A DNA stretch of 64,000 nucleotides, taken from assembly GCF_003781945.1 (NCBI RefSeq), contig NZ_RJJW01000008.1, positions 94,629 through 158,628 of the forward strand. The letters run 5' to 3'. Below are positions 10,316-63,659 of this stretch, in pieces. The notes under the pieces are model-generated. The model was not told where the DNA came from and made no database searches. It saw only the letters and a list, made by a program, of their open reading frames with translations. A program made the position numbers and the translations under genes. The DNA comes from Halorubrum sp. CSM-61. Its GTDB lineage: Archaea; Halobacteriota; Halobacteria; Halobacteriales; Haloferacaceae. Each line of letters opens with the position of its first letter. Within the stretch, counting starts at the first letter, position 1.

Positions 10316-10386
10316 GCGCCGGTGGTCTAGTGGTAGGACCTGAGCCTTCCAAGCTCATGGCCCGGGTTCAAATCCCGGCCGGCGCA
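10316..10386 (+). tRNA. tRNA-Gly (UCC)
   Basis: A 71-nt tRNA. The acceptor stem GCGCCGG (10316-10322) pairs with CCGGCGC (10379-10385), with discriminator A at 10386. The D-arm contains TCTAGTGGTAGGA. The anticodon stem GAGC/GCTC encloses CTTCCAA with anticodon TCC at 10348-10350. The T-arm reads CCGGGTTCAAATCCCGG. CCA is not encoded. The 3' half is duplicated downstream, so this gene is an integration target. Confidence 0.95.
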
Positions 10387-10583
10387 CTCGCTTCGTTCGT
10401 GCGCCGCCCGTACTCCCACTCGCTCGCTACGCTCGCTCGCGGGAGTCCCGGCCGGCGATTTTCCTCGCTTCGCTCGGAAAATCCTGAGAGGGGTTTGAAC
10501 CCTGGAAGTCGCAGCCCGGAACGGCGCGAAGCGCCGCACGCCCGGATCGTCTTCCTCCGGTTCAAATCCCGGCCGGCGCACTC
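10365..10583 (+). repeat. Duplicated tRNA 3' end (att-like direct repeats)
   Basis: The last 22 bases of the tRNA-Gly gene plus CTC (10365-10389) recur exactly at 10559-10583, giving a 25-bp direct repeat 194 bp apart. Such copies are left when a tyrosine-integrase element inserts at a tRNA and restores its 3' end. The short stretch between holds no gene, only GC-rich inverted sequence, so it may be the remains of a nearly deleted element or of two successive insertions. A tyrosine integrase lies at 62424-63659. No further copy was noticed inside the window. Confidence 0.7.
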
Positions 10584-21622: not shown

Positions 21623-22597
21623 TTATTGTTTGAACGCTTTCGCCACAAGCAGTGGGAAGACAAGTGTAGCCTCTGCTTCCACTTGTGTGTAGTTCGTCTG
21701 GTTTTCTTTGATCTTCCCCCAAGAAACAGCCTCGTTCGGCGGTGCACCCGATAATGACCCATCACCCTCCATCCCCGTTGAAATATACACCACGTAATCC
21801 GCTCCTCCTCGAAAGAGGTTCGTCATGATTGCATGGTGTTTCGGTACTCCACCCCCCACCGCGATGAGCCCCGTCGAGTCCGCCAGCAGCCCATCTTCAA
21901 TTAGCGAGTCATAGTCGTCCAAAATCTCAATACCCACTTCTGAATCGTACCCTTGACGGTAATAGTAGAGGAAGTTCCCGACCTCGGAGTCCGTCAACGC
22001 TGGACAGTACACCGGTACGTCGTTGTCCGCGGCCTGCTTCAGAACCGAATCCTCATCCTCAAGAGTTTCACCTAACTCGCGTGCGAACGACGTTGGTGTT
22101 CTCACTTTCTCCTCTGCGAAAAAGTCCTCAAAGAAATCATACAGATACTCTTCCAACCACACATACCGGTCAGAAGGAACGAAGAGATTCCCGAGCCGAT
22201 TGATCCCACGCTCACGGAGCGATGCCTCGTCTGCGTCCCATTTTCCCATCTTGAATGGCTTTGCCGTCTTGATCACGTCCTCGGTCAGCGATCCAGACGT
22301 CGTAATAACTACGTCCACATACCCCTCTCGAACGAGATACGCGACGGTCTCGCGCAGCCCCGACGAGATGATGTTTGACGTGAACGTGAGGTAGACAGTG
22401 GCGTCCGCCTCCTGCATACGTTCGGCGATGTCGATTGCCTCTGCGAGCTGCGTCGCCTGGAACCCCGTTGTCCCATAGGCGTCGAGCATCTCGTCAAAAT
22501 CAAATTCTCCACGAAAGTCGTAGCCACGAACATCCGGCGTGTCAGGTTCCTCATCACTCCCAGGAACGACGTCGCTGTGAGAGTCATCTTTGTCCAT
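21623..22597 (-). CDS. Deoxyhypusine synthase family protein
   Basis: A 324-residue member of the deoxyhypusine synthase family, which modifies a lysine of aIF5A using spermidine or agmatine and NAD. Diagnostic stretches are FTSNIISSGLRETVAYLVRE, the NAD-site GGGVPKHHAIMTNLFRGGAD, and SGAPPNEAVSWGKIKE with the catalytic lysine at about 295. The normal lysine and Rossmann residues are kept, so it should be active. Finding it beside hypothetical genes and a plasmid-type origin is unusual, since this is an essential core gene. It may be a second, accessory copy or a dhs-like paralogue with another substrate. Confidence 0.85.
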   Translation of the reverse strand: MDKDDSHSDVVPGSDEEPDTPDVRGYDFRGEFDFDEMLDAYGTTGFQATQLAEAIDIAERMQEADATVYLTFTSNIISSGLRETVAYLVREGYVDVVITTSGSLTEDVIKTAKPFKMGKWDADEASLRERGINRLGNLFVPSDRYVWLEEYLYDFFEDFFAEEKVRTPTSFARELGETLEDEDSVLKQAADNDVPVYCPALTDSEVGNFLYYYRQGYDSEVGIEILDDYDSLIEDGLLADSTGLIAVGGGVPKHHAIMTNLFRGGADYVVYISTGMEGDGSLSGAPPNEAVSWGKIKENQTNYTQVEAEATLVFPLLVAKAFKQ

Positions 22598-24608: not shown

Positions 24609-24773
24609 ATTCGTAGTGAGAGAGCGCGATGATAAATGTCTGAGGTTGTTGACAGAGATTATCGATGGATTCGTCATTGGGTGGTTATAGTCACTTTTTG
24701 GTTGTGGTGACGGAGGTGAAATATAACAGGAAGATACGACTGGGTCCACGGATTCAAGATATTTTACCACTAG

Positions 24774-27143
24774 ACGCACCCCTCTGTCGACTTGTTCAAC
24801 AAAACCACCTGTATATAGAGGGTCACCTCTATCGATTTGTTTCGCGAGGAGTTACCCATAGGAGATCGGTATTGAATTAGTGGAGAGAAGTTCTTTCCAC
24901 GCCCTAGTGGGAGGTTTCCATTGCTGATCAAAATTGAGCATAGGACCACTCCTACACGTAGTCGGGGGATTCACCACGACCGTGTCCCTAGGACCACACA
25001 CCCACCCCTATCGATTTGTTCTAACGAGAAAGAGTGGTGAGGTGGGTCAATCACGGGGGAGCCAAGGTGGATATGGTTAATCAGAATAATATCCTTCGGC
25101 TAAATCCATCTTTATAAATTCGATTCTGTTATAATTGGTGTGTAGAAAGGGGGTTGAACAAATCGATAGGAGTGGGTGTAGAGTAGTTAGTCGAAGAAAT
25201 AAAAGGAGCAACAAGACATCACTCACCACAGTGTACAAGAACTCCGATCCTGGTCTTCGTCGCTTGGTTTCTTGACTTCTTATTTAATATCCTATTAGGA
25301 GGTGAATATAGCGACGAAGAGTGATTAGAACAAATCGATAGACGTGTGTTCTTCTATCTAGCTAGTAGCTAGAACTAGAAAGAAGAAAAAGAGAAGGTGG
25401 AAGAGACTCTCAATTTTGCCCCAAATCGTGACGTAGATGAGACGTTAGTCCAATCTGGAATTCTGTCACCCCTCCCTTCCTTGGAGGCTGGAACAAATCG
25501 ATAGGGGTGAGAGGGTGTGTGGGTATTCTTTTGAATCGGTTGAGACGATAACCCCTAACAAATCGTCGGAGGTTACGGAGAGGAACAGCGTAAACCTCTA
25601 ATACCGTGGATTTGACGGTCATACCGGCAGAAAAGAAATCGACAGGGGAATCTTTTAGTATTTTGGTAGAGTGGGTCCCAATATGCCCACGGATCCTGGT
25701 CCCGAGGGAACCTCCGAGTCCACGGGTTCTATCAAAGATCTCATTCTCGAGCAGGAAGAAGCCGCGAGTCTCATCAAGAACCGGTCGCTCCTTGAGCCGA
25801 ACGAGATCGTCGACGAAGAACGTATCGTCGGTCGTGACACACAGCTCACCGATATTACTCAGCACCTTCGCGTCGCAATAAGTAACGAGCGACCGCCGAA
25901 TCTTCTCCTCTATGGTCCTTCTGGAACCGGGAAATCTCTTATCATCAACGCTGTCTGTCAGAACATCGTCGAACTCTGCGAAAGCCGTGATATCCGGTTC
26001 GGCGTCATCCAGATGAACTGCCAGAACGTGGGAACCCTCGGCGCAGCTGTCTACGAACTTTCCCGAAAGGTGGCGAACGACATCGGAACAACTGTCGATG
26101 TCCCGGAACATGGAGTTCCAAACAAGAAAAAATGGCGCGAACTCTACCGTCTGATCAACGACCACTACGATACAGTTGTATTTATTCTCGATGAACTCGA
26201 TATGCTCGTCGGTCGTCGAGATAAAGACGAGCCCGCTTTTTCGCGCCTTCTCTATCAGCTCTCTCGTGCTGGAAGCACCGACGAGATTACTGCCCAAGTC
26301 TCTGTCACTGCCATCACTAACGACACGAAGATGATGGAGAGTGTGGGAAGTCGCGCTCTCAGTTCCTTTACCCCTGAGGACGTTCACTTTAGTGACTACG
26401 ACGCCGACCAGCTCCGGGAAATTCTCCGGGCTCGGGAGGACGCCTTCCACGAGGATACACTCAGCGGTGACGTCATCCCGCTTGCAGCTGCATTCGCTGC
26501 CCAAACCAATGGAGACGCACGGAAGGCGATCGACCTGATGCGAACAGCTGGGTCGATTGCGGAAAAAACAGGTGCAGACAAAGTCCGGGAGGAACACGTT
26601 CGACAAGCCCAAGATAAGGTTGAGAAGAACCGCGTGTTGGAGGTGACACGTGGGATTAGTACGCAGAAGAAGCTCTGTCTGTTCGCGACTGCAGCTGTGG
26701 CCCGTGAGGATGGAACTGGTGCAGCAAGGAGCCCGATTGGATACCGGGTGTATCAGTACTTGACAGGTACCCTAGATTCGGATCAGTACCACCAGGAGAC
26801 GTACGTGAATAAGATGAAAGAACTCACGACGTATTCGTTGGTCGAGACAGAGCGGAAGAGTCAGGGACCACACTCGGGTAGCTACCTCGAGTTCACGTTT
26901 GGTGAGAATCCGGAGACTATCATCGAGACGCTCCGAGAAGATTCGCGGCTAGACGACGTCCACAATGACGAACTCCGCACCGTCGTGAATGCACAGCTCA
27001 ATCAGTAGGGTGTTCACCGAACAAGTCGATAGGGGCGAGGGTGTTATCGATGACTCAGTTTTATCGGTGACAGGAACAAGTCGATAGAGGTGGGTCTACA
27101 GACTGTGGTGGTCGCTCACACAACAAATCGATAGGGGCGACTG
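24774..27143. other. Replication origin region with ORB repeats
   Basis: Nine copies of an origin-recognition-box-like repeat, consensus GAACAAATCGATAGGGGTG, surround the orc1 gene. Three are in reverse orientation at 24774-24797, 24819-24843 and 24996-25021. Three are forward at 25156-25178, 25328-25350 and 25491-25516. Three more forward copies follow the gene at 27019-27043, 27074-27096 and 27122-27143. A decayed copy is near 25635-25651. An AT-rich segment (about 25081-25140) lies between the reverse and forward sets and is the likely unwinding element. Inverted boxes around AT-rich DNA beside orc1/cdc6 is the standard haloarchaeal origin layout. No other gene lies in 24609-25682. Confidence 0.88.
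25683..27008 (+). CDS. orc1: Orc1/Cdc6 replication initiator
   Basis: A 441-residue AAA+ initiator of the archaeal Orc1/Cdc6 family, which binds origin boxes and loads the MCM helicase. Walker A is GPSGTGKS at about residues 78-85. Walker B is FILDELD at about 167-173. Sensor residues follow near ITNDTKMME, and the sensor-2 region reads NGDARKAIDLMRTAG. The C-terminal winged helix ends the protein. The ATG at 25683 (MPTDPGPEGTSEST) is preferred to a GTG four codons earlier. ORB repeats on both sides, some within 150 bp of each end, show it acts on its own adjacent origin. Confidence 0.95.
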   Translation: MPTDPGPEGTSESTGSIKDLILEQEEAASLIKNRSLLEPNEIVDEERIVGRDTQLTDITQHLRVAISNERPPNLLLYGPSGTGKSLIINAVCQNIVELCESRDIRFGVIQMNCQNVGTLGAAVYELSRKVANDIGTTVDVPEHGVPNKKKWRELYRLINDHYDTVVFILDELDMLVGRRDKDEPAFSRLLYQLSRAGSTDEITAQVSVTAITNDTKMMESVGSRALSSFTPEDVHFSDYDADQLREILRAREDAFHEDTLSGDVIPLAAAFAAQTNGDARKAIDLMRTAGSIAEKTGADKVREEHVRQAQDKVEKNRVLEVTRGISTQKKLCLFATAAVAREDGTGAARSPIGYRVYQYLTGTLDSDQYHQETYVNKMKELTTYSLVETERKSQGPHSGSYLEFTFGENPETIIETLREDSRLDDVHNDELRTVVNAQLNQ

Positions 27144-27273
27144 TTTAGCATTTTGCGTTACCGATATTCTAAAAATCGTAGATGACGCTGGGATCTTTTG
27201 TGAATGAACGGTACTGTAGTCAACTGATCGAGGAACCACGCTATTGTCGTGAGGAAAACTGACACTCCCGCCT

Positions 27274-33490: not shown

Positions 33491-33685
33491 ATGGTAGATG
33501 GAGGTCGAGATTTGGAGCAAGAAATTCAAGCATCGTTTTCTGAGAAAATCTCGGATGAGGATTCGGTTCCAGACGCGGTTGCTGACAGATTAAATGAGTT
33601 GGAGCTAGCGGGTGAACTCACGGAGAGTGCTGAAATCAAAGACGTGATCGATGAGGAGGTTTCAGATGCAGATTCAGAGTATTGA
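33491..33685 (+). CDS. Small acidic protein upstream of Rad50-like ATPase
   Basis: A 64-residue acidic helical protein (MVDGGRDLEQEIQASFSEKI). It overlaps the start of the Rad50-like ATPase gene by 20 bases, which points to translational coupling. No domain recognised; it could be a small regulatory or DNA-binding partner. Base composition is AT-rich like the ATPase gene, unlike the flanks, so both were probably acquired together. Confidence 0.55.
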   Translation: MVDGGRDLEQEIQASFSEKISDEDSVPDAVADRLNELELAGELTESAEIKDVIDEEVSDADSEY

Positions 33686-36110
33686 GGTAGAGAATTTTCG
33701 AGGGATTACGAAGTGGAGCGATGAGGACATAAATGGTCAAAATGTTAGAATTCTAGGTCCAAATGGTTCTGGGAAGAGTTCAGTCATTCAAGCCATTGAA
33801 TTCCTTTTGACCGGCGATATAGACCAACTTCGGGGGCGTGGTAAGCAGCGGGTATCTTTCCGAAAGCATGCTTCCCACATCTTGGCAGATCCAGATGAGG
33901 CAGTTGTTCGTGCAACTGTCGAGGAATCCGGAGAAGGCCAAGTACGTGTTGAACGCTCAGTGGGAGATCCTGACCAACTAAATGTAATAGAGCCAAGTGA
34001 CAAAGATCAGCCACCGGGATGGTTACAGCAACAGATGGACATCGCATCTCTTGGTTATTCGATTTTAACAAGGGATAGGCTCTTACAGTTCATTTCAATA
34101 CCGGAAGGAGAACGTGGCGATAAACTAAACGAACTATTTCAAATTCAGGATATCGATGACAAGCGAACCGCACTAAAGACTACATACAAGAACTATCAAG
34201 ATATAGTTACTACACGTAAAGAGGATAGTAAAGATGCTGAAAAAAGATTTTTCCAGTTATTCAATGGTGAAGTGTCCACGTTAGAGAGAGCGCTTGAGAT
34301 CGTTAACGAACACAGGAAGAACCAGCAAGTGGACACGGTTGACTCACTAGACGAAGATCTGACAAAAGGACTATCTATAGAAAAAGTAACAACACCGGCT
34401 CTTCTTCAGCCTGGTACTCAGGAAGTTCTAGCAGACATTGACGATTGGATTCACCACCGCTCCTCAGAACTGTTTGATATTGAAAAGGACTTGCGAAGAG
34501 ATGTCAAAAACGTTGAAGAACAAGAGCATGCTAAGCGTGATCTTGATACAGTTGACCTCATTTCACGTGGGAAAGACCTGATTGAGGAATACGAAAATCA
34601 GTGTCCACTATGTTTGAAAGAGTGGGACAGTGACGACTTACAGTCACATCTCGAAGACCGGCATCAACGTATCCAAGGTCTTCAATCACTCCGAGATAGC
34701 ATCACATCAAAAAAGTCCGAACTAAGTACATCTCTCACGAGGTTTCAAAGTTTGTTAGAGCAGCTTGTGGCTGATATCGACGATGAACATCCCGAAGAGG
34801 CGACAACTTTCAACAAGGTCATTTCCGACATTGAAGAGTGGGAGTCAGACTTACAGACTGGATCCATGTCTGGGGTACCAGAAACACCAGAAGGTGCGGA
34901 GTACTCAATGCCACAACTATTCCCTGACAGACTAACTAAAGCTGTAAACCAGTTACAATCGAAGTCAGCCTCAAGTGGATCTACTACCGGACAACAAGAT
35001 ATTGAGTTCCTATCCCGAGCAGACGACCGTTACGAAACTGTAATTAAAAAAGAGGCTAGTTATACAGTAGCAAAACGCCGAAAGGAAGTCGCGGAACTGG
35101 TTTACCAAAACTTCTTGGATGCCCGTGAGCGGGTATTAGAGACTGTTTTTAACGAGATTCGTGATAAATTTGAGGATTACTATTCACAGCTGCACTCTGA
35201 TTCAGAAGCAGAAGATTTCAATGCCCTTATCGAACCTACGGACACTGGTGTCCGTTTTGAAGCCACATTCCACGAAGAGGGCACACATGATCCCGACGCA
35301 ATCCATAGTGAGGGGCACCGTGATAGCATGGGATTAGCCCTGTTTCTAGCAATATCCCATGTTGGGGGTGAAGCGATGGATATTCTGCTTTTGGATGATG
35401 TCGTAATGTCGATTGATTCGGGCCACCGTTCTGACATTGCATCCTTTTTATCGGATGAAATATCAGACAAGTATCAAGTTTTGATCACTACACATGATAA
35501 AACGTGGGATAGACATCTTACCCAAACGCAATCCTTTAACAAGCAGGTCCGTTTCTCTAAGTGTTCGTTAGAAGCAGGCCCTCTCCCGGTTGGAGACATC
35601 AGCAATCCCTGGGAGCGCATTCAGCATCATATCGACGAAGACGATGTACCAGCTGCAGCAGCATGGATCAGAAAGACAGTCGAATGGTTTTCGCGAAAAT
35701 CATGTCAGCACCTAGAAGCAGAAGTCCCATATCATGATCTGATCGAAGATGATCTGAATCCAGGATTCATCTTTGGAAAAGCGATTACCACCTACCGAAG
35801 TCGCTTAGAAGATGGTCAAATCACACAGAGAACCGACTGGACTCAGGATGAGATCGATGCCGAAATAGATCGCCTCACCGATACCCTTCGAGATCGACAG
35901 CGTCACCTCCAATTTCTCAATTCTAACATCCACCATAACGAGCCAGAGGCGTCATTCTATACCGGAGAAGAGCTAGCCCACCAGAGAGAGGTGTTTAAAA
36001 AGGCATACGAGATACTCTACTGTACCGACTGTGATAGTTGGATCAAACAAGGTGACTGGGGAGTCTACTGCAAATGTGCGACTCGTGTTGAGGTAGAGCC
36101 CAATCACTAA
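33666..36110 (+). CDS. Rad50/SMC-like ATPase with zinc hook
   Basis: An 814-residue ABC-type ATPase of the RecF/Rad50/SMC group. Walker A is GPNGSGKSS at about residues 31-39. Flanking coiled coil surrounds a hook-like CPLC near residue 313. Walker B is DILLLDDVV near 571, followed by a His-switch region (LITTHDKTW). The C-terminus has four close cysteines (CTDCDSW near 785 and YCKCA), a probable zinc ribbon. ATPases like this work in DNA-end repair and in many phage-defence systems. The gene is clearly AT-richer than its flanks. An in-frame tail continues after the TAA, and AddB/AddA-like genes follow on the same strand. Confidence 0.85.
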   Translation: MQIQSIEVENFRGITKWSDEDINGQNVRILGPNGSGKSSVIQAIEFLLTGDIDQLRGRGKQRVSFRKHASHILADPDEAVVRATVEESGEGQVRVERSVGDPDQLNVIEPSDKDQPPGWLQQQMDIASLGYSILTRDRLLQFISIPEGERGDKLNELFQIQDIDDKRTALKTTYKNYQDIVTTRKEDSKDAEKRFFQLFNGEVSTLERALEIVNEHRKNQQVDTVDSLDEDLTKGLSIEKVTTPALLQPGTQEVLADIDDWIHHRSSELFDIEKDLRRDVKNVEEQEHAKRDLDTVDLISRGKDLIEEYENQCPLCLKEWDSDDLQSHLEDRHQRIQGLQSLRDSITSKKSELSTSLTRFQSLLEQLVADIDDEHPEEATTFNKVISDIEEWESDLQTGSMSGVPETPEGAEYSMPQLFPDRLTKAVNQLQSKSASSGSTTGQQDIEFLSRADDRYETVIKKEASYTVAKRRKEVAELVYQNFLDARERVLETVFNEIRDKFEDYYSQLHSDSEAEDFNALIEPTDTGVRFEATFHEEGTHDPDAIHSEGHRDSMGLALFLAISHVGGEAMDILLLDDVVMSIDSGHRSDIASFLSDEISDKYQVLITTHDKTWDRHLTQTQSFNKQVRFSKCSLEAGPLPVGDISNPWERIQHHIDEDDVPAAAAWIRKTVEWFSRKSCQHLEAEVPYHDLIEDDLNPGFIFGKAITTYRSRLEDGQITQRTDWTQDEIDAEIDRLTDTLRDRQRHLQFLNSNIHHNEPEASFYTGEELAHQREVFKKAYEILYCTDCDSWIKQGDWGVYCKCATRVEVEPNH

Positions 36111-36221
36111 TTTAAGTCTCATTATACTCCTCAGTTAGATTCATTAGAAAGATTTCATCAGTTTCGCGAAGAAATACTTGAGGCGGTGGAGGATGTAGAA
36201 ACAGCTCTTAAGAATCGCTGA
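36111..36221 (+). other. In-frame open tail after the ATPase stop
   Basis: Directly after the TAA at 36108-36110 the same frame stays open for 36 codons and reads FKSHYTPQLDSLERFHQFRE then EILEAVEDVETALKNR before TGA at 36219-36221. It is a good amphipathic helix. The TAA may be a nonsense mutation in a once longer gene, or this may be the remnant of another small gene. There is no ATG in it. Confidence 0.4.
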
Positions 36222-36278
36222 TAATCAGAATATAGTATCCTAACAAAGATTTAACCGATACCGACGACTCCACGTGTT

Positions 36279-38864
36279 GTGCCATTTACCCGCGCAAAAT
36301 CATCACGTCAACTCTACGACGAAGTCAAATCGTACGACCGAGTGATTACTCCAGATGGACCGCTCGCGAGTGCCCTCAACCGCCAGCTTGATCGGTCACA
36401 CCTCGGTCCGTTTGCTATACCCCCACGTCGCCTTGCGGTCGGTCGCCGGCAAGAATCTGAGGACCGACTCGCGTTCCTCGGCATGATCACAAATGAAGAT
36501 ATTTCGTGGAAACGGTGCGCCTACGCAGTCGGGAATATCCTCCAGTGTTGGGAACACCAAGGATCCCACGAGGCTATCTTCGAGTACGACGCCTACATCG
36601 ACGAGGCTACCGAACGCGCAGTTGAGCGAATCGGTGATCTTGAAACGGCATCGATGAAGCTCACAAACGACACTATCGAGTCAGATCTCGATGTGGTCGT
36701 CGTCGAGCCGAAGATGCTTACCCAACTCGAACGAGCGTATCTGCCTACTGAGTACGATACGGTCAGTCTCTTTGCCGACACAGAGTTTGAGCTGTCGCCG
36801 TTTCGCATCCATGATTCACCGACAGCGATCATCGAAACGGTGGTGAATGGGGTCACCGAGACAAACGCCGAAAACGTCGGGATTGTCCTCGATCAGGAAA
36901 GCGAGTACTCACCACTCATTGAGTCCGCCCTCGAGGCAGCCGACATCCCATTTTTCGGCGGACCAGGCTTTACTGATCGCAGCGAACACCGCTTGTTCCT
37001 TCATCTCCTCCGGACTGCTCACCGTGGAACTGACACTCGAATCAGCGAGATTCGATCGCTGCTGACAGCTTTTGACTGCGATGTTACCGACCGTGAGGCG
37101 GACAAGCGGCTCCACGAACTCGATGATGGTGACCTTTCGTGGCTGATCGACTTCTGTCACGAGATTCAGGAGTACACGTTTTCGGACGCGCTCTCGGCGT
37201 TCGAACACCGTGCCGACGACACGCTTGATGCCTTTCGAGCGGAGCTAAATGAGCTTGGCATCGCCGACGAGCCCGTTACGGAGGCGCGCCTCGACGAGCT
37301 GTCGTTCTATCTACAGACGTATGAGGTACCTGTTGACCGGGATAACGAAGGCGTCCTGCTCGCTGACGCGAAGTCGGCATCATTCGTCGGCCGTGAGGTC
37401 GTCTTCTATCTAGGCCTCGATGACCGGTGGACACATTCGGCACCGCGTCGTCCGTGGGTTGATCAGGAAGCTCAGTTCACGCGGAATCTCAAGAGCTTCC
37501 AGTTGCTGTTACAGAGCGGGAGCCAGCAACACTATCTCGTTCAGGATGCAACCGGCGGATCGCCGGTTACCCCGTGTCTGTACTTCGAAGAGCTCCTTGA
37601 ACGAGAATACGATCGTTTCTCAGAACTGCCGTCTACCACCCATCAACTCCGATCTGAACCACATGATGGGGCTGTATTCAACACAGAGTCAGTTGACGTG
37701 TCTCCTGAACCAGTCGAGACGATCAGTAAGTCGAGTCTCAACACCTACGTGAACTCACCGCGAGATTACTACTTCAGCCGGATCGTCGACGGCCCAGAGA
37801 AAGAGTATCTCACTGAAGGCAACCTGTTCCATGACTTTGCGGAGTTCTACGTCACCCATCCTGCGGTCGTCGACGACGCGGCGCTGACAGAAGTCGTTGA
37901 CCTCATGCTTGATGAAGTCCGTCCGCTGATCCGCTCCGTTGATGAACAGACTCGCCGCACTGAGTACCGTGTTAGCCTCGAAACAATCGTCTCGTACCTC
38001 GACGACAACCCCTCGAAAGACGGAGCGTTCCTTACACCCTCTAGCAGTACTGAGAACGCTATTGCCGACTACTTCGGGTACGATATCGAGTCGCCGGTAA
38101 CTGAACGCCGGTTTGTTGATGAGGATCTTGGTATCAACGGAATGATCGACCTTGTCCAGTCGCAAACCGAGCTGCTGGATTACAAAAGCGGGAGTGAGAA
38201 CGACGCCAATTCAATTGTCCAAGACGCCGCGATCGACGAACCATCCGACGAACCGGATTTCCAAGCATTGCTATATCTCACCTACTGGCGCTCACAAACG
38301 CCCGCTCAACAGCTCTCGTTCACGTTCTTTTACGTCACTGAACTCGTCGACGACGCCATCGCCGGTGACGTCGATATCGACGACGCGCTGACGACAGTGA
38401 CATACTATCCCGGATCTCTCACAGATCACGTCCGAACAGAGGAGTTCTTCGAGTACCTTCGTGAGGAGGGGGCGAACAAGTGCCAGAAAATTCTCTCGAA
38501 GATCGACTATCAGACGTACGCTGCTCTCTTCGATGCCACACCACTCGTTGAGACAACTGACAGCGACGAACTCATCGAGTCAGAGTTCGGCCGGACGATG
38601 ATTAAACGACTCGAGGCAGAGATTGGAGAGTACAAGTACGTAAAGACGGGGAGCAAACAGGTTATGCGGGAAATCGCTCGGCAACAGAAGGGTGCGTTCT
38701 TTGAACCTGACCTGGATGCGTTTGAGTCGTTTGTTGAGGAGCGACTGACAGAGCTCAACCGACGTCGTACAGGTGACGAGCCGTTTCCCATTGAGGGACT
38801 TGCTGGCGAGCCGAATTACCGGCGGGTGGATAATCGTGATTTGCTCTTGGAGGGTGACCAATGA
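36279..38864 (+). CDS. AddB-like protein with PD-(D/E)xK nuclease
   Basis: An 861-residue protein starting at GTG. It resembles AddB/RecB-type nuclease subunits. The N-terminal two thirds is helicase-like but lacks a Walker A motif. The C-terminal nuclease domain (about 500-720) contains GINGMIDLVQSQTELLDYKS, whose D...D-Y-K residues form the PD-(D/E)xK core near 620-635. Features such as ETISKSSLNTYVNSPRDYYF at its start are the usual entry of the RecB nuclease domain. I see no iron-sulphur cysteine set, unlike bacterial AddB. It overlaps the AddA-like gene by ATGA, so the two form a complex in all likelihood. Confidence 0.8.
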   Translation: MPFTRAKSSRQLYDEVKSYDRVITPDGPLASALNRQLDRSHLGPFAIPPRRLAVGRRQESEDRLAFLGMITNEDISWKRCAYAVGNILQCWEHQGSHEAIFEYDAYIDEATERAVERIGDLETASMKLTNDTIESDLDVVVVEPKMLTQLERAYLPTEYDTVSLFADTEFELSPFRIHDSPTAIIETVVNGVTETNAENVGIVLDQESEYSPLIESALEAADIPFFGGPGFTDRSEHRLFLHLLRTAHRGTDTRISEIRSLLTAFDCDVTDREADKRLHELDDGDLSWLIDFCHEIQEYTFSDALSAFEHRADDTLDAFRAELNELGIADEPVTEARLDELSFYLQTYEVPVDRDNEGVLLADAKSASFVGREVVFYLGLDDRWTHSAPRRPWVDQEAQFTRNLKSFQLLLQSGSQQHYLVQDATGGSPVTPCLYFEELLEREYDRFSELPSTTHQLRSEPHDGAVFNTESVDVSPEPVETISKSSLNTYVNSPRDYYFSRIVDGPEKEYLTEGNLFHDFAEFYVTHPAVVDDAALTEVVDLMLDEVRPLIRSVDEQTRRTEYRVSLETIVSYLDDNPSKDGAFLTPSSSTENAIADYFGYDIESPVTERRFVDEDLGINGMIDLVQSQTELLDYKSGSENDANSIVQDAAIDEPSDEPDFQALLYLTYWRSQTPAQQLSFTFFYVTELVDDAIAGDVDIDDALTTVTYYPGSLTDHVRTEEFFEYLREEGANKCQKILSKIDYQTYAALFDATPLVETTDSDELIESEFGRTMIKRLEAEIGEYKYVKTGSKQVMREIARQQKGAFFEPDLDAFESFVEERLTELNRRRTGDEPFPIEGLAGEPNYRRVDNRDLLLEGDQ

Positions 38865-41710
38865 GCGACGTTACACCAAACCCGGAGCAACGCGACCTCA
38901 TTGAGTCAACCGACGGCCTGTACATCGTCGACGCTGGTGCTGGCACCGGGAAGACCTTCACTGTCACCCGGCGGTATGCGAACATCGTCGATCAGGACGG
39001 GATCGATCCGTCTGATGTCCTGTTGGTAACGTTCACGAACAACGCAGCTGAGGAGATGCGCGACCGGATTGTGCGGAACACCGAGTACGGTATGCGGGAG
39101 CTCTCGAACGCCCCGATCCAGACGTTCCACTCGTTGGCACACGATATCCTCGACGAACACGGCCATGATGCTCCGACATATCTCGGCGTGGAGGAGACGA
39201 TCACCGGCTCGACGCGGATCATCGAAGACGATATCATCGAACAGGCGCTGTTTCGAGAGTTTATCGGCCAGTTCATCGACTCGCACCCTGAGTACAACGA
39301 GTTCTTCACAGCGATCTCAGAAACGACAGAACTGCTCGATCTCATCAAAGAGCTTTCTGCGAAGGGTGTCTTTCCCACCAAAACCGGCTGGTACCGCGAC
39401 GGTGAATCACACCTCGACGGTGACTTTGCGGCGTTTGAGACGCTGTTCGCCGATATAAATCAACCTCGAAACGGTGGCAGCAAGCAGTCGAAGCTCCGGT
39501 CGAAGCTCAGCAAATATGGGAAAGAGAAAACCTACCTCCCAGAGGCACCTGAGAGATGGGAGCTTCGCGGGAACGCCAAACAGATTCCAGCGGATGTCGC
39601 TGGACGCGTTTTCGAGGACGATCGAACAGCACTCAAGCAGTTCGTTCACGATGTGTATCACGCCTACCTTGAGTTTGCGCTTCGACGGAACTACCTGAAC
39701 TTCGGGTTCCTTCAGCTGTTTGCGTTCGTCCTTCTGTGTGAAGACCACGATCTTCGAGAACGACTGGGCTACGAGTATGTGATGGTCGACGAGTTCCAGG
39801 ACTCCAGTGAGATCCAGTTCAAACTCATGCTTCTTCTGGCCGGCACAGAGAATATCTGTGTGGTCGGTGACTGGAAGCAAAGCATCTACAGCTTCCAATA
39901 CGCCGACGTCGACAACATCCGCGAGTTCGACGAGCGACTCGACCGGTTCGCCGAAGAGCTGAATCGGGACGCAGATCGCGTCACATTCCCGACGACGACA
40001 GCTGCCAGCAAACAACTGACACGGAACTACCGGTCGACCCAATCTATCCTAAGGTTCTCGACACAGGCGCTGACGGCTCGTGCGACGAACAGTGAGTTAC
40101 TCGATGTTGAGGCAATCTCCGAGGCGGTCACACGGTTGAAGGCGGACACAGACCATGACGAGAGCCGTATCGAGGCGCTCACGAGTGAGGATGAACACGA
40201 GGCGATTCTCGCGAAAATCGACGACATCGTCGACAATGATGACTACGCCGTTGAGGGTGACGATGGCGAGTACCGCGCGCCGACGTACGGTGATATCGCC
40301 GTTTTGACCCGGACTCGCGATTTCGGCCGGGACCTACTCGACACGGCAAGCGAATACAACCTGCCGATGGCCTACGAGGGAGGGATCGAAGTCTTCCGAA
40401 CCGATGCTGCGAAATTGCTGTTAGCGTGGCTCCGCATCCTCGAACGTGACGCCGACCGTGGTTGGGCACTCGTCTTAGAAGAGGCCGGATACACAATCGA
40501 CGAGGTGAAAGCGATCACCGATCGCGGGGCGTACCCTGAAGCGATGGTTACCTTCCGTGAAAACCTTCGGGAGATGGAGACATTCGGGGGTGTCGCCCGT
40601 CGCGTGTTCGATCGGTACGACCGGAGTGGTCCAACCGCGGACGTTGTCCTTGACACTATTCAGTCGGTCCACGGGACGACAACGTTCACTCGTGGAGAAC
40701 TCATCCAGTTTATCGAAGCCGCGATCGAAGAGGGCAGCACCCATGAGGTCGACGCTGGTGCGGGAACGAATGCGGTGACTGTTCAGACGATCCACGCAAC
40801 GAAAGGGCTCGAATATCCGATTGTCATCCTCGCGAATATGAACACGAACAAGTTCCCATCAACCGGTGGCAGCGGGAGCGATATCGCGTACACAGACCCA
40901 ATCGGACTCCGACAGAGAAAGGTGTACTCTGAGGAGGCTCACGATGTCCCACACGTCTACGACAACTGGCAGACAGACGTTCTCAATAAGTGTCTCTCCC
41001 AGAACTACGATGAGGAACGCCGACTGCTCTACGTGGCTATTACGCGTGCTGAGAGCCACGTCATTCTAACCGGCGGTGAGAATCCAAATGTGTTCCTCGA
41101 CGAACTCCCCGTTAATATCGAAACAGTCGACCCAGATCTGTCGTCCTTCAGCGCAGTAGACAACGAGTCTTCACCGTTTACCGTTGACATTCCGGATCCT
41201 GATGGGCCAGCAAGCTACTCCCCGCATACGTTCATCGACGATGCCGTGTTCGAAGGAGACACCGGTGGTCGAGGGATAGAGTTTGGCTCTGAAGTCCACG
41301 AGTTCGCAGAGCGGTATGTGCTCGGTGAGGCTGTCGACACCGGGGACAACCCTGATAAGGAGAATGTGAAGGAATTCTTAGACTCACTTGACGGCAAGAG
41401 GAAAGCTGAGATCGACGCGTTCCTTCCGTTGACTGTCGATGACAAGGAGGTGACGATCGGCGGGATCATCGACTTGCTCCATATTACGCCTGACCGGGTT
41501 GATATCATCGACTACAAAACTGACCTCACGACCCACGCCGAAGACGAGTACGAGAAACAGCTCAGTATTTACTACCACGTCGTTGCCGACCAATATCCAG
41601 ATCGGTCGGTCACTGCATCGATTTTCTACACCAATGATGGTGACCGGCGGGGGATCACCCATCTCAGCAAATCAGAACTCAAAGACCTGGTCCGAACACA
41701 CCGTGCGTGA
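38861..41710 (+). CDS. AddA-like UvrD-family helicase-nuclease
   Basis: A 949-residue SF1A helicase fused to a RecB-type nuclease. Helicase motifs: Walker A DAGAGTGKT at residues 24-32; motif Ia LLVTFTNNAAEEM; motif II MVDEFQDSSEIQ; motif III VGDWKQSIYSF; motif IV NYRSTQSIL; motif V VQTIHATKGLEYPIV; motif VI YVAITRAESHV. The C-terminal nuclease site is IGGIIDLLHITPDRVDIIDY-K with the D...D-Y-K triad. With the AddB-like partner it should unwind and degrade DNA ends for recombination, or destroy invading DNA. Haloarchaea normally rely on Mre11-Rad50 and HerA-NurA, so an AddAB-like pair next to a Rad50-like ATPase is unusual. Confidence 0.88.
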   Translation: MSDVTPNPEQRDLIESTDGLYIVDAGAGTGKTFTVTRRYANIVDQDGIDPSDVLLVTFTNNAAEEMRDRIVRNTEYGMRELSNAPIQTFHSLAHDILDEHGHDAPTYLGVEETITGSTRIIEDDIIEQALFREFIGQFIDSHPEYNEFFTAISETTELLDLIKELSAKGVFPTKTGWYRDGESHLDGDFAAFETLFADINQPRNGGSKQSKLRSKLSKYGKEKTYLPEAPERWELRGNAKQIPADVAGRVFEDDRTALKQFVHDVYHAYLEFALRRNYLNFGFLQLFAFVLLCEDHDLRERLGYEYVMVDEFQDSSEIQFKLMLLLAGTENICVVGDWKQSIYSFQYADVDNIREFDERLDRFAEELNRDADRVTFPTTTAASKQLTRNYRSTQSILRFSTQALTARATNSELLDVEAISEAVTRLKADTDHDESRIEALTSEDEHEAILAKIDDIVDNDDYAVEGDDGEYRAPTYGDIAVLTRTRDFGRDLLDTASEYNLPMAYEGGIEVFRTDAAKLLLAWLRILERDADRGWALVLEEAGYTIDEVKAITDRGAYPEAMVTFRENLREMETFGGVARRVFDRYDRSGPTADVVLDTIQSVHGTTTFTRGELIQFIEAAIEEGSTHEVDAGAGTNAVTVQTIHATKGLEYPIVILANMNTNKFPSTGGSGSDIAYTDPIGLRQRKVYSEEAHDVPHVYDNWQTDVLNKCLSQNYDEERRLLYVAITRAESHVILTGGENPNVFLDELPVNIETVDPDLSSFSAVDNESSPFTVDIPDPDGPASYSPHTFIDDAVFEGDTGGRGIEFGSEVHEFAERYVLGEAVDTGDNPDKENVKEFLDSLDGKRKAEIDAFLPLTVDDKEVTIGGIIDLLHITPDRVDIIDYKTDLTTHAEDEYEKQLSIYYHVVADQYPDRSVTASIFYTNDGDRRGITHLSKSELKDLVRTHRA

Positions 41711-41742: not shown

Positions 41743-42438
41743 TCACCTCAGGTGGTTAATCTGTGCAGACAGATACTCTTGGAGAGCGGTGACCGTTTCT
41801 TCTGAGACAGCTGAGGCCCCGAAGTCACTCCGAAATCCGTGCTTGAGTTCGTCGCTCTCCAAGATATCCAGTCCACGCTCAAGTTGCTCCCGTAGGGCAT
41901 TGTCGTCTCCTCGCCGCAGATGGGGCGTGACAGCGTTGAGGTCGATCTCTTCAGCCACTGCCAGGACGTCTCGGAGGTCCGTTTCTCGGCCACTGTGGAG
42001 CTTTGCCGCCACGAGGACGGCCCCATCGATGACTCTGCCCGTCGTCGTCACTGTGCCCCCGCTCACCTCCTGTTGGTGGCTGTGGTCGTACAGGTAGTCG
42101 AATGACCACTGTGCCTCCGTCTGGCGACACCCGAGTCCGTTTACTAGGAGATCGAAGCCGATCGGCTGCTGCGGCGTGAGCCGCTTCTCGTACTCGATTA
42201 CCTCGGTGTCGTAGAACCATTCCTTGGCGTGGCTGTCCGTTTCCTCGAATCCCTGCTGTTCGAGGAACTCGACGAAGTCAGCCTTGGAGTCCGGCGCGAC
42301 GACGATATCGAGGTCCGTGGAGAAGCGAGCGTTGAACGCTGAGACAGCGTAGCCGCCAACAAGAACGTACTCGTGGCTCTCTTGGGTGAGCTCTTCGAGC
42401 AGTTCGATGAGCGCGTCACTTCGGTTATTGAAGCTCAT
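41743..42438 (-). CDS. Nucleotidyltransferase, AbiEii-like
   Basis: A 231-residue protein with a DNA-polymerase-beta type nucleotidyltransferase fold. The signature G28-G29 in YVLVGGYAVSAF is followed by D42 and D44 in STDLDIVVAP. A third acidic residue is in FDLLVNG. It resembles AbiEii toxins and related nucleotidyltransferases. It is the second gene of a pair with a winged-helix protein, overlapping by ATGA, the normal arrangement for AbiE-type systems. The toxin role is inferred; the target is unknown. Confidence 0.75.
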   Translation of the reverse strand: MSFNNRSDALIELLEELTQESHEYVLVGGYAVSAFNARFSTDLDIVVAPDSKADFVEFLEQQGFEETDSHAKEWFYDTEVIEYEKRLTPQQPIGFDLLVNGLGCRQTEAQWSFDYLYDHSHQQEVSGGTVTTTGRVIDGAVLVAAKLHSGRETDLRDVLAVAEEIDLNAVTPHLRRGDDNALREQLERGLDILESDELKHGFRSDFGASAVSEETVTALQEYLSAQINHLR

Positions 42439-43109
42439 GGCTGTGCCCGTTCGGTCTCTCGATACGTGACGCCGAGGTCGAGGTCCTCGTACATCCGATC
42501 GAACATCGCCAGCGCCGACTGGAACTGGGCGTAGTTCTCGCGCATATACTCGATTGTCTCGTCTCTTGGGATCACTGGGTACCCCTCGACGTGTTCGATG
42601 TCGAGTGACGCGCGTGGTTCAAGGACGATCTGCAGCGGTTCGTTCAACTCCTCTCGGGGCTGTCGCTCGAATGCGGTGGGAAGGTCGAAGGACTCAAAGA
42701 ACGCCCCCCAGGCGTCGACATCCCGCTCACGGACGGCTAGGAACAACGGATAGTCGTTGGGCTCGCGACCGACCTGGTAGCCGCCCTGAGTCCACACGTA
42801 GACGGCGTCGATCCGCGCAAACGCGAACGGCCAGTCACCGAACTGTGGGATGACGTAGGCCTCTTCGATGGAGGGTGGACTGATGCTGGCGCTGGCAGCG
42901 ACGAACTCGAGCGCTGCGTCGCGTACGCGCTCGTCGACGACAGTGAGGCCGTCGTCATAGGAAACGTAGCCTGCGTCTTCCAGCCGATTGACGGCCTGTC
43001 TCACTGTCTCGTAGGGCGTATGGAGGTGTTGAGCGACACGGCGGATGGAGTCACCACTCTCGATGGCGAGGATAATCTGCGCCGCCGTGTCGTCGAGCAC
43101 TTCGTACAT
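42435..43109 (-). CDS. Winged-helix protein, AbiEi-like antitoxin
   Basis: A 224-residue protein. The N-terminal winged helix (about residues 5-60) reads AAQIILAIESGDSIRRVAQH, HTPYETVRQAVNRLEDAGYV. The remainder is an uncharacterised domain (YVIPQFGDWPFAFARIDAVY). It begins at ATG 43109 (MYEVLDDTAAQ); the upstream extension is the shadow of the divergent gene region. It precedes the nucleotidyltransferase with an ATGA overlap. As in AbiEi, the HTH would repress the operon and neutralise the toxin. The role is inferred from domain order. Confidence 0.7.
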   Translation of the reverse strand: MYEVLDDTAAQIILAIESGDSIRRVAQHLHTPYETVRQAVNRLEDAGYVSYDDGLTVVDERVRDAALEFVAASASISPPSIEEAYVIPQFGDWPFAFARIDAVYVWTQGGYQVGREPNDYPLFLAVRERDVDAWGAFFESFDLPTAFERQPREELNEPLQIVLEPRASLDIEHVEGYPVIPRDETIEYMRENYAQFQSALAMFDRMYEDLDLGVTYRETERAQP

Positions 43110-43275
43110 CTGGTAGTTACCGGTAATACGGTAACAGACAAAAATCTTACTCGACTGGCGATAATGACGATCTCTCCATCCGTCTCGAAAGTCGTCTTGA
43201 GCCCTGAAAAAACGAAGATAACTGAGATCACCACCCGCCGGTACGCTTTTATCAGAACTCTGAGTCGGCTTTTTT

Positions 43276-44205
43276 ATGCTCACCACACCGAACAGGGGAC
43301 AGAGACAAATTGACGACGGGACGGTTTCCCAGTCAGCGCTGGATCTGCTGTACGCGATTGGCGAGTGGTACAACGGCGCTGAGTTCCATCGGGATGGGCA
43401 GTTGCTCTCGATCGCGACCTCACAGCCGCCGAAGCTTCAGACACTCATCGATTGTGGCGACAATTTTTGGGACTACCGCTACGCAGACGCGTTCGATGAG
43501 TTAGAATCTCTCGGCTGGGTTCGCGGGAGTGAGGACCCTGAGTGGATCCTGTCCAAGCCCGTGAAGTGGGCTCCGACGCGCCAAGGTCGGGCGGCGATTG
43601 GTGATTTCTTCCGCGAGGAGTTCATCGAGAAGTACAAAGGAATCATCCGCTCTGACGGCGGGCTCGTCGGGTACTTGGACGAGACGCTGACGCACCGGAC
43701 GGGCGTGGAGCTCTGTCACTTTGCTGGTGGACACCCGATCTCTGCAATAGGAGACTTCAAAGATCACCCGTGGGAGAATATTGTGATGTACCCAGGCAAT
43801 CGCAGACACACTCGACCGGATGTCGGCACCGCCAACGAGTGGACCAGCTGGGAAATCATCACCAGCCACGACGATCTCGTCGAGACCGCCGAGAAGTTGA
43901 TGCGGATTCGCGGCCAGTACGAATACGTCCGCTGGCTTTTCGACACGCGAGAGACTGCCTTCCGTGTGCTGTCGTTCTTCCACGAATCGGACCTTACCGA
44001 CATCCAGATCGTGAACGCGCCGTACGATAATTCCGAGAACTACTCACTCCAGACCGGTCGGGACTTTCTTAAGCGAAGTCGCGAGGACGATAGGTACTGC
44101 GTCAACGGCATCGACCAACTCGAAACGCTCCAGTCCCTCTGGGATCAGAAAGAGCACTTCGCCCAGACCTACAACCAGAAACCGCCGATCGAATCCACTC
44201 TGTGA
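43276..44205 (+). CDS. Hypothetical protein abutting an IS605 scar
   Basis: A 309-residue protein of unknown family, divergent from the AbiE-like pair. The N-terminal 110 residues look like an extended winged helix (SQSALDLLYAIGEWYNGAEF, ELESLGWVRGSEDPEWILSK). The middle contains HTRPDVGTANEWTSWEIITS. The stop codon TGA at 44203-44205 lies exactly where homology to the IS605 right end begins (GTGAACTACCCT), so the natural C-terminus may have been lost to that insertion. It may belong functionally with the AbiE-like genes. Confidence 0.6.
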   Translation: MLTTPNRGQRQIDDGTVSQSALDLLYAIGEWYNGAEFHRDGQLLSIATSQPPKLQTLIDCGDNFWDYRYADAFDELESLGWVRGSEDPEWILSKPVKWAPTRQGRAAIGDFFREEFIEKYKGIIRSDGGLVGYLDETLTHRTGVELCHFAGGHPISAIGDFKDHPWENIVMYPGNRRHTRPDVGTANEWTSWEIITSHDDLVETAEKLMRIRGQYEYVRWLFDTRETAFRVLSFFHESDLTDIQIVNAPYDNSENYSLQTGRDFLKRSREDDRYCVNGIDQLETLQSLWDQKEHFAQTYNQKPPIESTL

Positions 44206-55019: not shown

Positions 55020-56192
55020 TCAAAACAGTGACTCCAGTTCCCCGTCGCTATCCATCAACTCCGAGAAACGGTCCTCACTCTCGTCAGTGATCTCCCCGAG
55101 ATTCTGTTGCGCTTCGATTGCGACCTGCTGGAGCTCTTTCACGCGCGGGACGTTCGTCACGCCGCCGAGCAGTACGAGCGCTGCGACCGTCCCTTCTCCA
55201 CGCCGCGGATAGTCACCACCACGGACCTCCATCGAGCCGGTCTGTTCTTCGAGCCACTTGCGACCGTGCTCAATACCCTTCCGGTTGAGATACTCTGGTG
55301 GGCCGGCAACCACAAGCAGCGCCCGCTCCGTGCCCTTCACTTCACAGGGCAAAGTGAGTCGACCCAGCGTCGCCTTCCGGACGAGACTCGTGATCCGGTT
55401 GGTCGCCTCTGTACTGTCGATCCCAGCATTCGAATCGCCACGGAATCGCGAGAGCAACCCCTTCCGCTCTGGTTCGTCCACCTCGACGTCGGCATAGCCT
55501 AGCGAGGATATCCCGCCGCCTTTGAGTGTGTTAATGATCTCCGAGGAGTCGACCACACTCTCGGCGATGTCGCTTCCTTCGGTTATCTCGCCCGCACTGA
55601 AGAGAACGCCAAACCGCTGGACTAGCTCCTCGTTGATCGCATCGAACCCTTCCTCAACGGATTCACCCGAACTGCGCCACGCGTCGTTGTCGAACAGCAT
55701 GAGGTTGTCCACCTCATCGACAAACGTCTTGAGAGACCGAGCGGCGTTCAGAGTGTAGATCCCACCCTCGTTGCTGCCGGGCAGAATACCGAGTCCGTAC
55801 ACAGGTTCGGTGTAGATTCGCTTGAGGTTCTTGGCGATCACGGGTGCCCCACCCGACCCCGTCCCGCCACCAAGCCCCGCAACGACGAGGAACGCATCGA
55901 TCTCGTGGACCGGCACCTCGTCAAGCGCTCCTTGGATCTCGTCGATATCCTCCTCGGCCACTTCTGCGCCCAACTCGTTATCTGCGCCCACGCCGTGACC
56001 CTTCACTCGCGATTGCCCGATCAGGATCCGGCGGTCTGTCGGGAGGTGGTCGATTCCTTGGAGATCTGCTTTCGCCGTGTTGACGGTGATCGCTCCCCGA
56101 ACGATATCAGCGCCTGTCCGTGCGTCGTAGGCCAGGAACTCGTCGACCACCTTCCCACCCGCCTGTCCGACCCCGATCAATGCGAGTTTCAT
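55020..56192 (-). CDS. cetZ: CetZ-type tubulin/FtsZ family GTPase
   Basis: A 390-residue tubulin-superfamily GTPase. MKLALIGVGQAGGKVVDEF at the start and the tubulin signature GGGTGSGG (residues 108-115) form the GTP pocket. A NLMLFDNDAW segment and helices H10-H11 follow, then a tail (about 375-390) that is short and acidic. This is the haloarchaeal CetZ family, known for control of cell shape. The ATG at 56192 gives the usual N-terminus. It lies 186 bp downstream of a small RHH-type gene on the same strand and near a phased repeat array. That context suggests a plasmid-segregation (TubZ-like) use, which is inference. Confidence 0.9.
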   Translation of the reverse strand: MKLALIGVGQAGGKVVDEFLAYDARTGADIVRGAITVNTAKADLQGIDHLPTDRRILIGQSRVKGHGVGADNELGAEVAEEDIDEIQGALDEVPVHEIDAFLVVAGLGGGTGSGGAPVIAKNLKRIYTEPVYGLGILPGSNEGGIYTLNAARSLKTFVDEVDNLMLFDNDAWRSSGESVEEGFDAINEELVQRFGVLFSAGEITEGSDIAESVVDSSEIINTLKGGGISSLGYADVEVDEPERKGLLSRFRGDSNAGIDSTEATNRITSLVRKATLGRLTLPCEVKGTERALLVVAGPPEYLNRKGIEHGRKWLEEQTGSMEVRGGDYPRRGEGTVAALVLLGGVTNVPRVKELQQVAIEAQQNLGEITDESEDRFSELMDSDGELESLF

Positions 56193-56378
56193 GTGAACAC
56201 ACCACGTGTAGATACGCAGGTCGGACTGATAAAGGTTAGAAGCTCGAAAATATCGGGAAGAGGATGATACCACACGAAAAGCGTCGATACCTCCCATGTG
56301 GTCTCGGTCGTGAGATAGAGTGCGAGTACAGTTCTACATCCTCTGGTGAAATTGTGTGTCGTGGTTTGTCGAGTTCCC

Positions 56379-62251: not shown

Positions 62252-62461
62252 TCAGGAGAATCCTACGGAGGAGCAATCGTCGACCACTCGGTTCCGTTCC
62301 GTCTCCAGATCTAGAAGACCTTGGGCGAGAAGCGTCGTATAAAGCTTGTCGATGCACCGAACCTCAAGCATGGGGAAGTAGGGCTTACATCGAACAAGGG
62401 CAATTCGTCTCGGAGTAATCCCCTCATCGGTCGATTTCTTCCAGAGCTTCCGTAGCGACAT
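62252..62461 (-). CDS. Possible small protein after the integrase
   Basis: A 69-residue frame starting MSLRKLWKKSTDEGITPRRI, then KPYFPMLEVRCIDKLYTTLL. It overlaps the 3' end of the integrase gene by 38 bases. The helical look of its middle suggests a winged helix or a relic of one. There is no ribosome site or homologue to support it, so it is tentative. Confidence 0.3.
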   Translation of the reverse strand: MSLRKLWKKSTDEGITPRRIALVRCKPYFPMLEVRCIDKLYTTLLAQGLLDLETERNRVVDDCSSVGFS

Positions 62462-63659
62462 CGCCCAATTCCCCGGCCTCGATATGTGAGTAGCGCTCTC
62501 GGACCATCTCTTCGGAGTTATCGAGATAGCGGGCCGCCACCGTGTACCCAAACGCGCGGACAAGTACTTCACCCATCCCACGACGGCCGCCGTGCGGAGC
62601 AAGATAATCGTGTTTCGGATGGTCGATGTCGATCTCTGCGTCATCCGAGAGCCGTTGGAGAATCGACCGTGCGCCGTCCGTCGTAATCGATGGCGGCCGA
62701 AAATCCTCATCAAGCGCTAGCAGTAAGTCGCGAGCGTACTCCTCACGGCGCTCAGTAATTGCTTCTAGGCGTTCCCCTCGGTCGGCTAGCTCATCCTGGA
62801 CGAGCCCTGCGAGCGTCCGTTGGTCGAACGTCGGAAACACCGGCCAGCGCTCCGTCGGTGGGTCCATAAGTCGACGATAGCTCCGCAACGGCGAGATCAC
62901 CGGGTCGGGGAGACTGGCGGCGTCCCACTGCTGTTTTTTCCGGTAGACGTCCATGCTCCCGTCCTCGAGCGAGAGGTCCTCCCAGCGGACGCCGCGCCGG
63001 CGCGGGTCGTTCGGATCCCGGAGGAGTTCCCCCACGCGGACGGCCGTGTACGCGAGGACGAACACCAAAGCCCGGTCACGAGCCGCCTTCAGCGCCACAT
63101 AGCGCGCTCGCTGCTTGTCGGGGTGATCAGTATCCTCCGAAAGTGTCGTGTACGCTTCGACGGCATCGCGAGCCCGTTCGTCGACGTGGCGGGTGAGAGC
63201 GTGGCGCTGTTCGGACGTCCAGGCCTGCTGGTCACCGGGCTTGCGGCCGTCGTCCTCCGGCAGCGGCGCCATCGCGCTCGCCCGCTGCGCGTAGTGCGCT
63301 TCGAGATACCCCTCATTGACGCACCAGCCACACCACGCAGAGATATAGCGATAATAGGTTTGGACGGTGTTCTGTTTGAGGCCACGGTCACCAGCGAGAT
63401 GCCGGGCGTACTCGCGGAAGACACGTTCGTCGAGATCGTCGAAGGTGGGATCACGATCGACATTGTCCGAGACGATTCCTGTCCAGTCGTCGCCGCCGCG
63501 GTCGCCAGCGGCCCACTCGGAAAACCGCTCGAGTTCGCGTGCAGCGTTACGTCGGTAGTTCCCACCGTCGCCACCGCGGCCCTTCCCCTTGTCCTGGAGG
63601 TAACGTTCGAAGCTGTCGTCAAGAGCGTATTCAGACTGGGAAGACCGATCGTCGATCAT
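62424..63659 (-). CDS. Tyrosine recombinase/integrase
   Basis: A 411-residue tyrosine recombinase (XerC/phage integrase class). The N-terminal SAM-like DNA-binding domain is at about 10-130. The catalytic domain has R208 (AYTAVRVGELL), H356-x-x-R359 (PHGGRRGMGE) and Y390 (RERYSHIEAGE). All active residues are intact. It lies at the opposite end of the accessory DNA from the tRNA-Gly att repeats, so it may be the enzyme that inserted the element. A plasmid-resolution role is the alternative. It is followed on the same strand by a possible 69-residue gene. Confidence 0.9.
   Translation of the reverse strand: MIDDRSSQSEYALDDSFERYLQDKGKGRGGDGGNYRRNAARELERFSEWAAGDRGGDDWTGIVSDNVDRDPTFDDLDERVFREYARHLAGDRGLKQNTVQTYYRYISAWCGWCVNEGYLEAHYAQRASAMAPLPEDDGRKPGDQQAWTSEQRHALTRHVDERARDAVEAYTTLSEDTDHPDKQRARYVALKAARDRALVFVLAYTAVRVGELLRDPNDPRRRGVRWEDLSLEDGSMDVYRKKQQWDAASLPDPVISPLRSYRRLMDPPTERWPVFPTFDQRTLAGLVQDELADRGERLEAITERREEYARDLLLALDEDFRPPSITTDGARSILQRLSDDAEIDIDHPKHDYLAPHGGRRGMGEVLVRAFGYTVAARYLDNSEEMVRERYSHIEAGELGDVATEALEEIDR

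Follow-up and report, generated by a model that had tools for sequence, protein, structure and literature searches.

This locus raises the question of whether an orc1 gene in low-GC DNA of Halorubrum sp. CSM-61, together with the repeats around it, makes up a complete replication origin and, if so, to what kind of replicon that origin belongs. The window, meaning the whole 64,000-nucleotide stretch that was analysed, corresponds to bases 94629-158628 of contig C20. Its search recovers nine full boxes, AACAA[AG]TCGA[TC]AG, flanking an intact orc1, and all nine ORBs listed in a first-pass annotation are among them (Table 1). At 3 or fewer mismatches the window holds 10 matches against 0.97 expected, a count that none of the shuffled sequences reached, and throughout the 3.7-Mb draft genome AACAARTCGAYAGRNG is matched perfectly at these nine sites alone. 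The arrangement described in the first pass is also borne out by position and strand: 3 reverse and 3 forward boxes upstream of the gene are oriented outward from a 132-bp centre, an inverted layout kept in about 30 loci, and the remaining 3 sit 3′ of orc1. The G-rich end of the boxes is as short as had been claimed, with 2 to 4 G per box (the longest run is 4, and some boxes have just 2). Where the earlier set of nine fell short is in completeness, since an alignment of 22 relatives adds two conserved box-like sites, at 25557 and 25633, and the count of conserved boxes, as read from that alignment, is at least eleven.

Table 1. Coordinates of the origin cassette and of the element that carries it (window positions)
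Feature	Position	Strand	Basis
tRNA-Gly(TCC), insertion target, left element end	10316..10387	+	ARAGORN
Left att-like repeat, tRNA-Gly 3′ end	10365..10389	+	Repeated at 10559 and C16:1839 (1 mismatch)
Second copy, tRNA-Gly 3′ end	10559..10583	+	Repeat search
ORB R1 (AACAAGTCGACAGAGGGG)	24779..24796	-	Motif search and column conservation
ORB R2	24824..24841	-	Motif search and column conservation
ORB R3, inner reverse	25003..25020	-	Column identity 99.5%
Centre, probable unwinding/helicase-loading region	25021..25156	.	Predicted role
ORB F1, inner forward	25157..25174	+	Motif search and column conservation
ORB F2	25329..25346	+	Motif search and column conservation
ORB F3	25492..25509	+	Column identity 99.2%
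Degenerate ORB F4 (AACAAATCGTCGGAGG)	25557..25574	+	2 mismatches; column identity 96.5% in 22 loci
Promoter box P (AAGAAATCGACAGGGG)	25633..25648	+	1 mismatch; 99% column identity
TATA-like element of orc1	25653..25660	+	Conserved TTTTAGT; predicted role
orc1/cdc6 initiator gene, 441 aa	25683..27008	+	TIGR02928, Pfam Cdc6_lid and Cdc6_C
ORB D1, 3′ of orc1	27020..27037	+	Motif search
ORB D2, 3′ of orc1	27075..27092	+	Motif search and column conservation
ORB D3, 3′ of orc1	27122..27139	+	Motif search and column conservation
Tyrosine-recombinase-like gene, SAM-like domain, on element	62424..63659	-	Pfam Phage_int_SAM_5, E 9e-7; weak XerA match

The AT-rich centre of the first-pass annotation survives only in part. 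In the window copy the locally most AT-rich 40-mer (75% AT) does fall between the inner boxes, but the centre as a whole is 58% AT versus 55% in the upstream region, and the 40-mer is not conserved in the comparison with relatives, so AT-richness was rejected as a conserved feature. The length of the centre is 132-134 bp in most relatives, and the highest AT content lies at ~25083-25140.

The orc1 gene, for which annotated relatives place the start at the ATG at 25683 (there is an in-frame GTG at 25671), encodes Walker A (GPSGTGKS), Walker B (FILDEL) and lid (GDARKA) motifs and a C-terminal winged helix; it matches TIGR02928 with 396 bits against a cut-off of 181, and the nearest solved structures are A. 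pernix 2v1u and S. solfataricus 2qby. An AAA+ and winged-helix orc1/cdc6 gene thus stands directly beside the boxes, as in an ORB-type origin. The protein is under strong selection, given a dN/dS of 0.02-0.05 despite saturated synonymous change in the distant copies. About a dozen other Orc1 genes are present in the host genome, and at those of their loci with clear repeats the repeats differ from the cassette boxes. Promoter box P, found in all 22 aligned loci and, at 1 mismatch or fewer, in 22 of 29 clade rows, ends 4 nt before the TATA-like TTTTAGTA, which is itself centred about 27 nt 5′ of the orc1 ATG. In haloarchaeal leaderless genes a TATA element is expected about 27 nt before the start codon, and the spacing here fits a leaderless transcript. 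A scan for sigma-70-type promoters returned matches at chance level, with a bacterial-type consensus that is not meaningful for an archaeon. The promoter box probably serves autoregulation of orc1 by Orc1.

How far does this unit extend? The span of 24774-27143 proposed in the first pass coincides almost exactly with the conserved block, since DNA comparison finds only ~24772-27170 shared with most relatives. This 2.4-kb cassette recurs at about 30 loci in many haloarchaeal genera and families, and its recurrence with unrelated flanks fits a portable module. Orc1 relatives at 90-100% identity occur in Halorubrum, Haloarcula, Haloarchaeobius, Haladaptatus, Natrinema, Natronococcus, Halobacterium, Haloquadratum and others; the copies in H. 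amylolyticum and H. halophilum are near-identical to the window cassette, and that of Haloarcula amylolytica, which belongs to another family, has 95% DNA identity across the whole block, which indicates recent transfer. Conservation is concentrated in the boxes, with a mean column identity of 0.963 inside them versus 0.633 outside (22 aligned loci); when boxes were placed at random in 20,000 trials, the upstream value was never reached and the downstream value was reached at p ~0.003. A viral source for the cassette is unsupported: IMG/VR viral contigs gave no match to Orc1, and the two matches in a phage search were distant, partial and from one virus that appears in two records. In the window, 41743-43373 holds a nucleotidyltransferase-like gene and an HTH gene that together resemble a toxin-antitoxin pair, and in Haloarcula amylolytica and Halorubrum californiense part of this stretch lies directly 3′ of the cassette.

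The best evidence for a self-sufficient plasmid origin is that the cassette is the sole Orc1 place, by tblastn, on four complete circular plasmids: those of Haloarcula marina (94.5 kb), Halomarina BCD28 (119 kb), Salarchaeum japonicum (135 kb) and Natrinema zhouii (224 kb). The description of the locus as a complete haloarchaeal orc1/ORB origin in accessory DNA is thus supported and gains its type, that of the only orc1/ORB module such plasmids carry. On the first three of these, which were read whole, all boxes are confined to the cassette; GC skew of three complete plasmids gave no clear pointing to it, and non-Orc replication proteins may be present among the hypothetical genes of the cassette plasmids. 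A natural initiator knock-out is found at 3001-5396 of NZ_CP034941.1, a 607-kb Halorubrum ezzemoulense megaplasmid (L181) with other Orc1 genes, where an orc1 99.6% identical to that of the window is split by an IS1595-family transposase gene and all ten boxes beside it are intact. On the Halomarina BCD28 plasmid a nuclease/helicase pair lies close to the cassette. It is similar to a pair in the window, where 33651-41710 encodes on one strand an SMC-like ATPase (a weak Lamassu LmuB-like match), a PD-(D/E)XK nuclease and a UvrD helicase, possibly a defence or recombination module.

One claim of the first pass did not hold, namely that the GATCGAT-like core is particular to this origin. A sister Orc1 clade (~67-73% identity, more than 40 loci) has boxes of the form GAACAC[AT]TCGATAGAGGGGTG, and a third clade (~56% identity) has ACAC[AT]TCGATGACGGGG; with TCGAT in all three clades, uniqueness of the core was rejected. 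The base that does distinguish the window origin is an A in place of C at box position 5. Sister-clade loci such as Natronomonas pharaonis PL131 and Natrinema zhouii plasmid unnamed2, with GAACACATCGATAGAGGGGTG boxes, share the TCGATAG core, the divergent upstream boxes and a downstream array, and differ from the window origin in having C at base 5, a longer G-run and an array that is mostly reverse. Box type tracks the Orc1 clade (A-type, AACAA, in 31 rows and B-type, AACAC, in 45, counting rows with boxes found), and on a quick Orc1 tree built without bootstrap it requires the minimum number of changes. The only fixed differences between the first two clades in the C-terminal DNA-binding region are at residue 355 and, in the wing, at 398, 401, 404 and 405; the probable recognition helix has no fixed difference between them. 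This distribution suggests that it is the wing of the winged helix that reads the differing base at position 5, in a domain that also varies at many unfixed positions. The A and B types occur together in at least five genomes (L042/L056, L028/L045, L018/L068, L025/L071 and L041/L054). It was already known that each Orc family has ORBs of its own (PMC3528665); a one-base box difference between close sister Orc1 clades was not found in the literature examined. The combined proposal, in which the wing recognises a one-base code (A versus C at position 5) that sets compatibility groups and a promoter box provides autorepression of orc1, is offered tentatively, and we think it somewhat unlikely to hold. 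If true, the code would sort the plasmids into compatibility groups and so allow both types to share one cell, and the promoter box would exemplify an archaeal initiator repressing its own gene, like DnaA. A separate oddity is the Natronosalvus caseinilyticus plasmid NZ_CP100395.1 (L188), where three tandem A-type boxes about 42 bp apart (864-963) lie upstream of a clade-C orc1; these could be what remains of an A-type array, or they could act as a decoy against plasmids of that type.

The chromosomal setting of the window copy is explained by integration. GC content drops from ~0.70 to 0.55-0.56 just past tRNA-Gly, and direct repeats of the tRNA-Gly 3′ end lie on both sides of the element, at window positions 10365 and 10559 and at C16:1839. 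Contig C16 reads, in order, a copy of an insertion sequence that is also in the window, ~1.7 kb of low-GC DNA, the tRNA-end repeats and a chromosomal flank; in several related genomes this right flank (C16:4838, 84% match) is no more than a few hundred bases away from the tRNA. In H. amylolyticum, moreover, the site is empty, with high-GC chromosomal sequence common to several relatives starting ~250 nt past tRNA-Gly, and a 9.6-kb block that contains the cassette, at 99.5% identity, is on another contig of plasmid-like GC. Taken together, the repeats, the C16 flank and the empty site place the cassette in an element inserted at tRNA-Gly. As assembled, the element would span at least ~63 kb, split over contigs C20 and C16, and may be one element or several nested ones. 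Its recombinase-like gene is ~52 kb from the left end, and the assembly is incomplete ahead of the right end. In the genus this tRNA-Gly is an insertion hotspot, with low-GC DNA or repeated tRNA ends after it in many genomes. The tRNA-Gly end repeats are in tandem at window 10365-10583 and at C16:1743-1968 (L173), with their order swapped between the sides, which suggests repeated insertion and excision at this site. Among the other contents of the low-GC region are a CetZ tubulin-like gene (55020-56297; CetZ_C, 269 bits) and a complete deoxyhypusine synthase gene (21623-22597), a gene of essential type that here lies on mobile DNA and has 99% identity to its H. amylolyticum counterpart.

The three boxes 3′ of orc1, all within 131 bp of its stop codon, fit an array that titrates the initiator better than they fit a component of the unwinding origin. 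Among relatives the array ranges from 1 to 7 boxes, spaced 42-55 bp apart, which is what is expected of a tunable titrating array. Its orientation is forward in the A-type clade and mostly reverse in the sister clade; orientation thus seems unimportant, and titration fits better than initiation. Seven-box arrays are seen in Haloquadratum (L036, 7336-7667, 53-bp period) and in Haloarcula marina (L172, 38028-38372, 47-bp period). A precedent is oriC2D of Haloarcula hispanica, a downstream ORB cluster that lowers oriC2 activity in a manner graded by box number and has no ARS activity by itself (PMC3936714); by analogy, the array here probably titrates Orc1 as well. That precedent also speaks against the view that the array is not a titrator but a partition (centromere-like) site or a further site of initiation. 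The tandem, expandable, iteron-like character of the array and the ParA genes near the cassette on some plasmids would suit such roles, but ParA does not always adjoin the cassette and none was found among the genes scanned in the window, and we regard this alternative as improbable.

On all of these lines we consider it highly probable that the locus is a haloarchaeal plasmid-family replication module, carried into a Halorubrum-like chromosome by a mobile element at tRNA-Gly. In this reading Orc1 would bind its own AACAA[AG]TCGA[TC]AG boxes, and the six divergent boxes would place it around the 132-bp centre and start replication, with DNA unwinding and MCM loading at that centre; the tandem boxes 3′ of the gene would titrate Orc1, with consequences for copy control and incompatibility, and the box at 25633, beside the TATA-like element, would let Orc1 repress its own promoter. 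Specific use of adjacent ORBs by Cdc6 proteins has been shown elsewhere (PMC3936714). Two predicted H. hispanica origins with good ORBs had no ARS activity, however (PMC3528665), so structure does not prove function. A refinement of the same explanation, in which the chromosome replicates from its own origins while the cassette is dormant and fires only on excision of the element or failure of the main origins, is quite possible, and we would put its chances at about even. The oriC4-cdc6H origin of Haloferax mediterranei is such a case, a dormant and recently acquired chromosomal origin that becomes essential once the others are deleted (PMC4595724), and several of the dozen or so other Orc1 genes of the present host have unrelated boxes. 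An intact cassette under purifying selection could still fire in principle, but near-identity to the H. amylolyticum and H. halophilum copies implies a recent arrival, and for that reason the intact state tells little about whether this host uses it. Another alternative is that the boxes, the downstream ones or perhaps all, are mainly operators and that the locus is no origin, Orc1 being a transcription regulator like Sulfolobus Orc1-2, a non-initiator according to PMC9738581. One box does lie at the orc1 promoter. Yet tested haloarchaeal origins are laid out in this way, with divergent boxes about a fixed-length centre, several complete plasmids have no Orc1 gene besides that of the cassette, and the boxes are absent elsewhere in the genome and elsewhere on the three plasmids read whole; we therefore give this alternative very little credence.

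As a plasmid-family module, the locus adds a bounded and widely shared 2.4-kb cassette to the known haloarchaeal orc/ORB origins. A plasmid origin caught in a chromosome through tRNA insertion would be an instance of the event thought to have given archaea multiple origins. Near-identical cassettes on plasmids and chromosomes, along with a sister type that differs by one base, make dormancy, copy control and specificity testable with matched constructs, and the cassette could serve as a broad-host vector origin for haloarchaea.

Among characterised systems, oriP-cdc6K of the Haloarcula hispanica megaplasmid pHH400 is likewise a megaplasmid orc/ORB origin, with ARS activity shown (PMC3528665); its initiator has 28% protein identity to the Orc1 of the window and its commonest repeat word, AACAGCGGACA, is unrelated to the window boxes, so it was rejected as a close relative. 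By description, the module resembles the acquired or plasmid-type orc/ORB origins oriC4-cdc6H and oriP1-cdc6L of Haloferax mediterranei and oriP2-orc13 of H. volcanii pHV4, a group in which some are chromosomal and dormant until needed (PMC4595724). In layout, a close likeness is to oriC2-cdc6E with oriC2D in H. hispanica. That system has 11 downstream ORBs as against 3 in the window, and the passages of PMC3936714 on oriC2-cdc6E describe no promoter box, whereas the window module has one and sits on an integrated element. It too has ORBs 5′ of the initiator gene and an array directly 3′ of it, and it is there that plasmid-like incompatibility and titration have been shown (PMC3936714).
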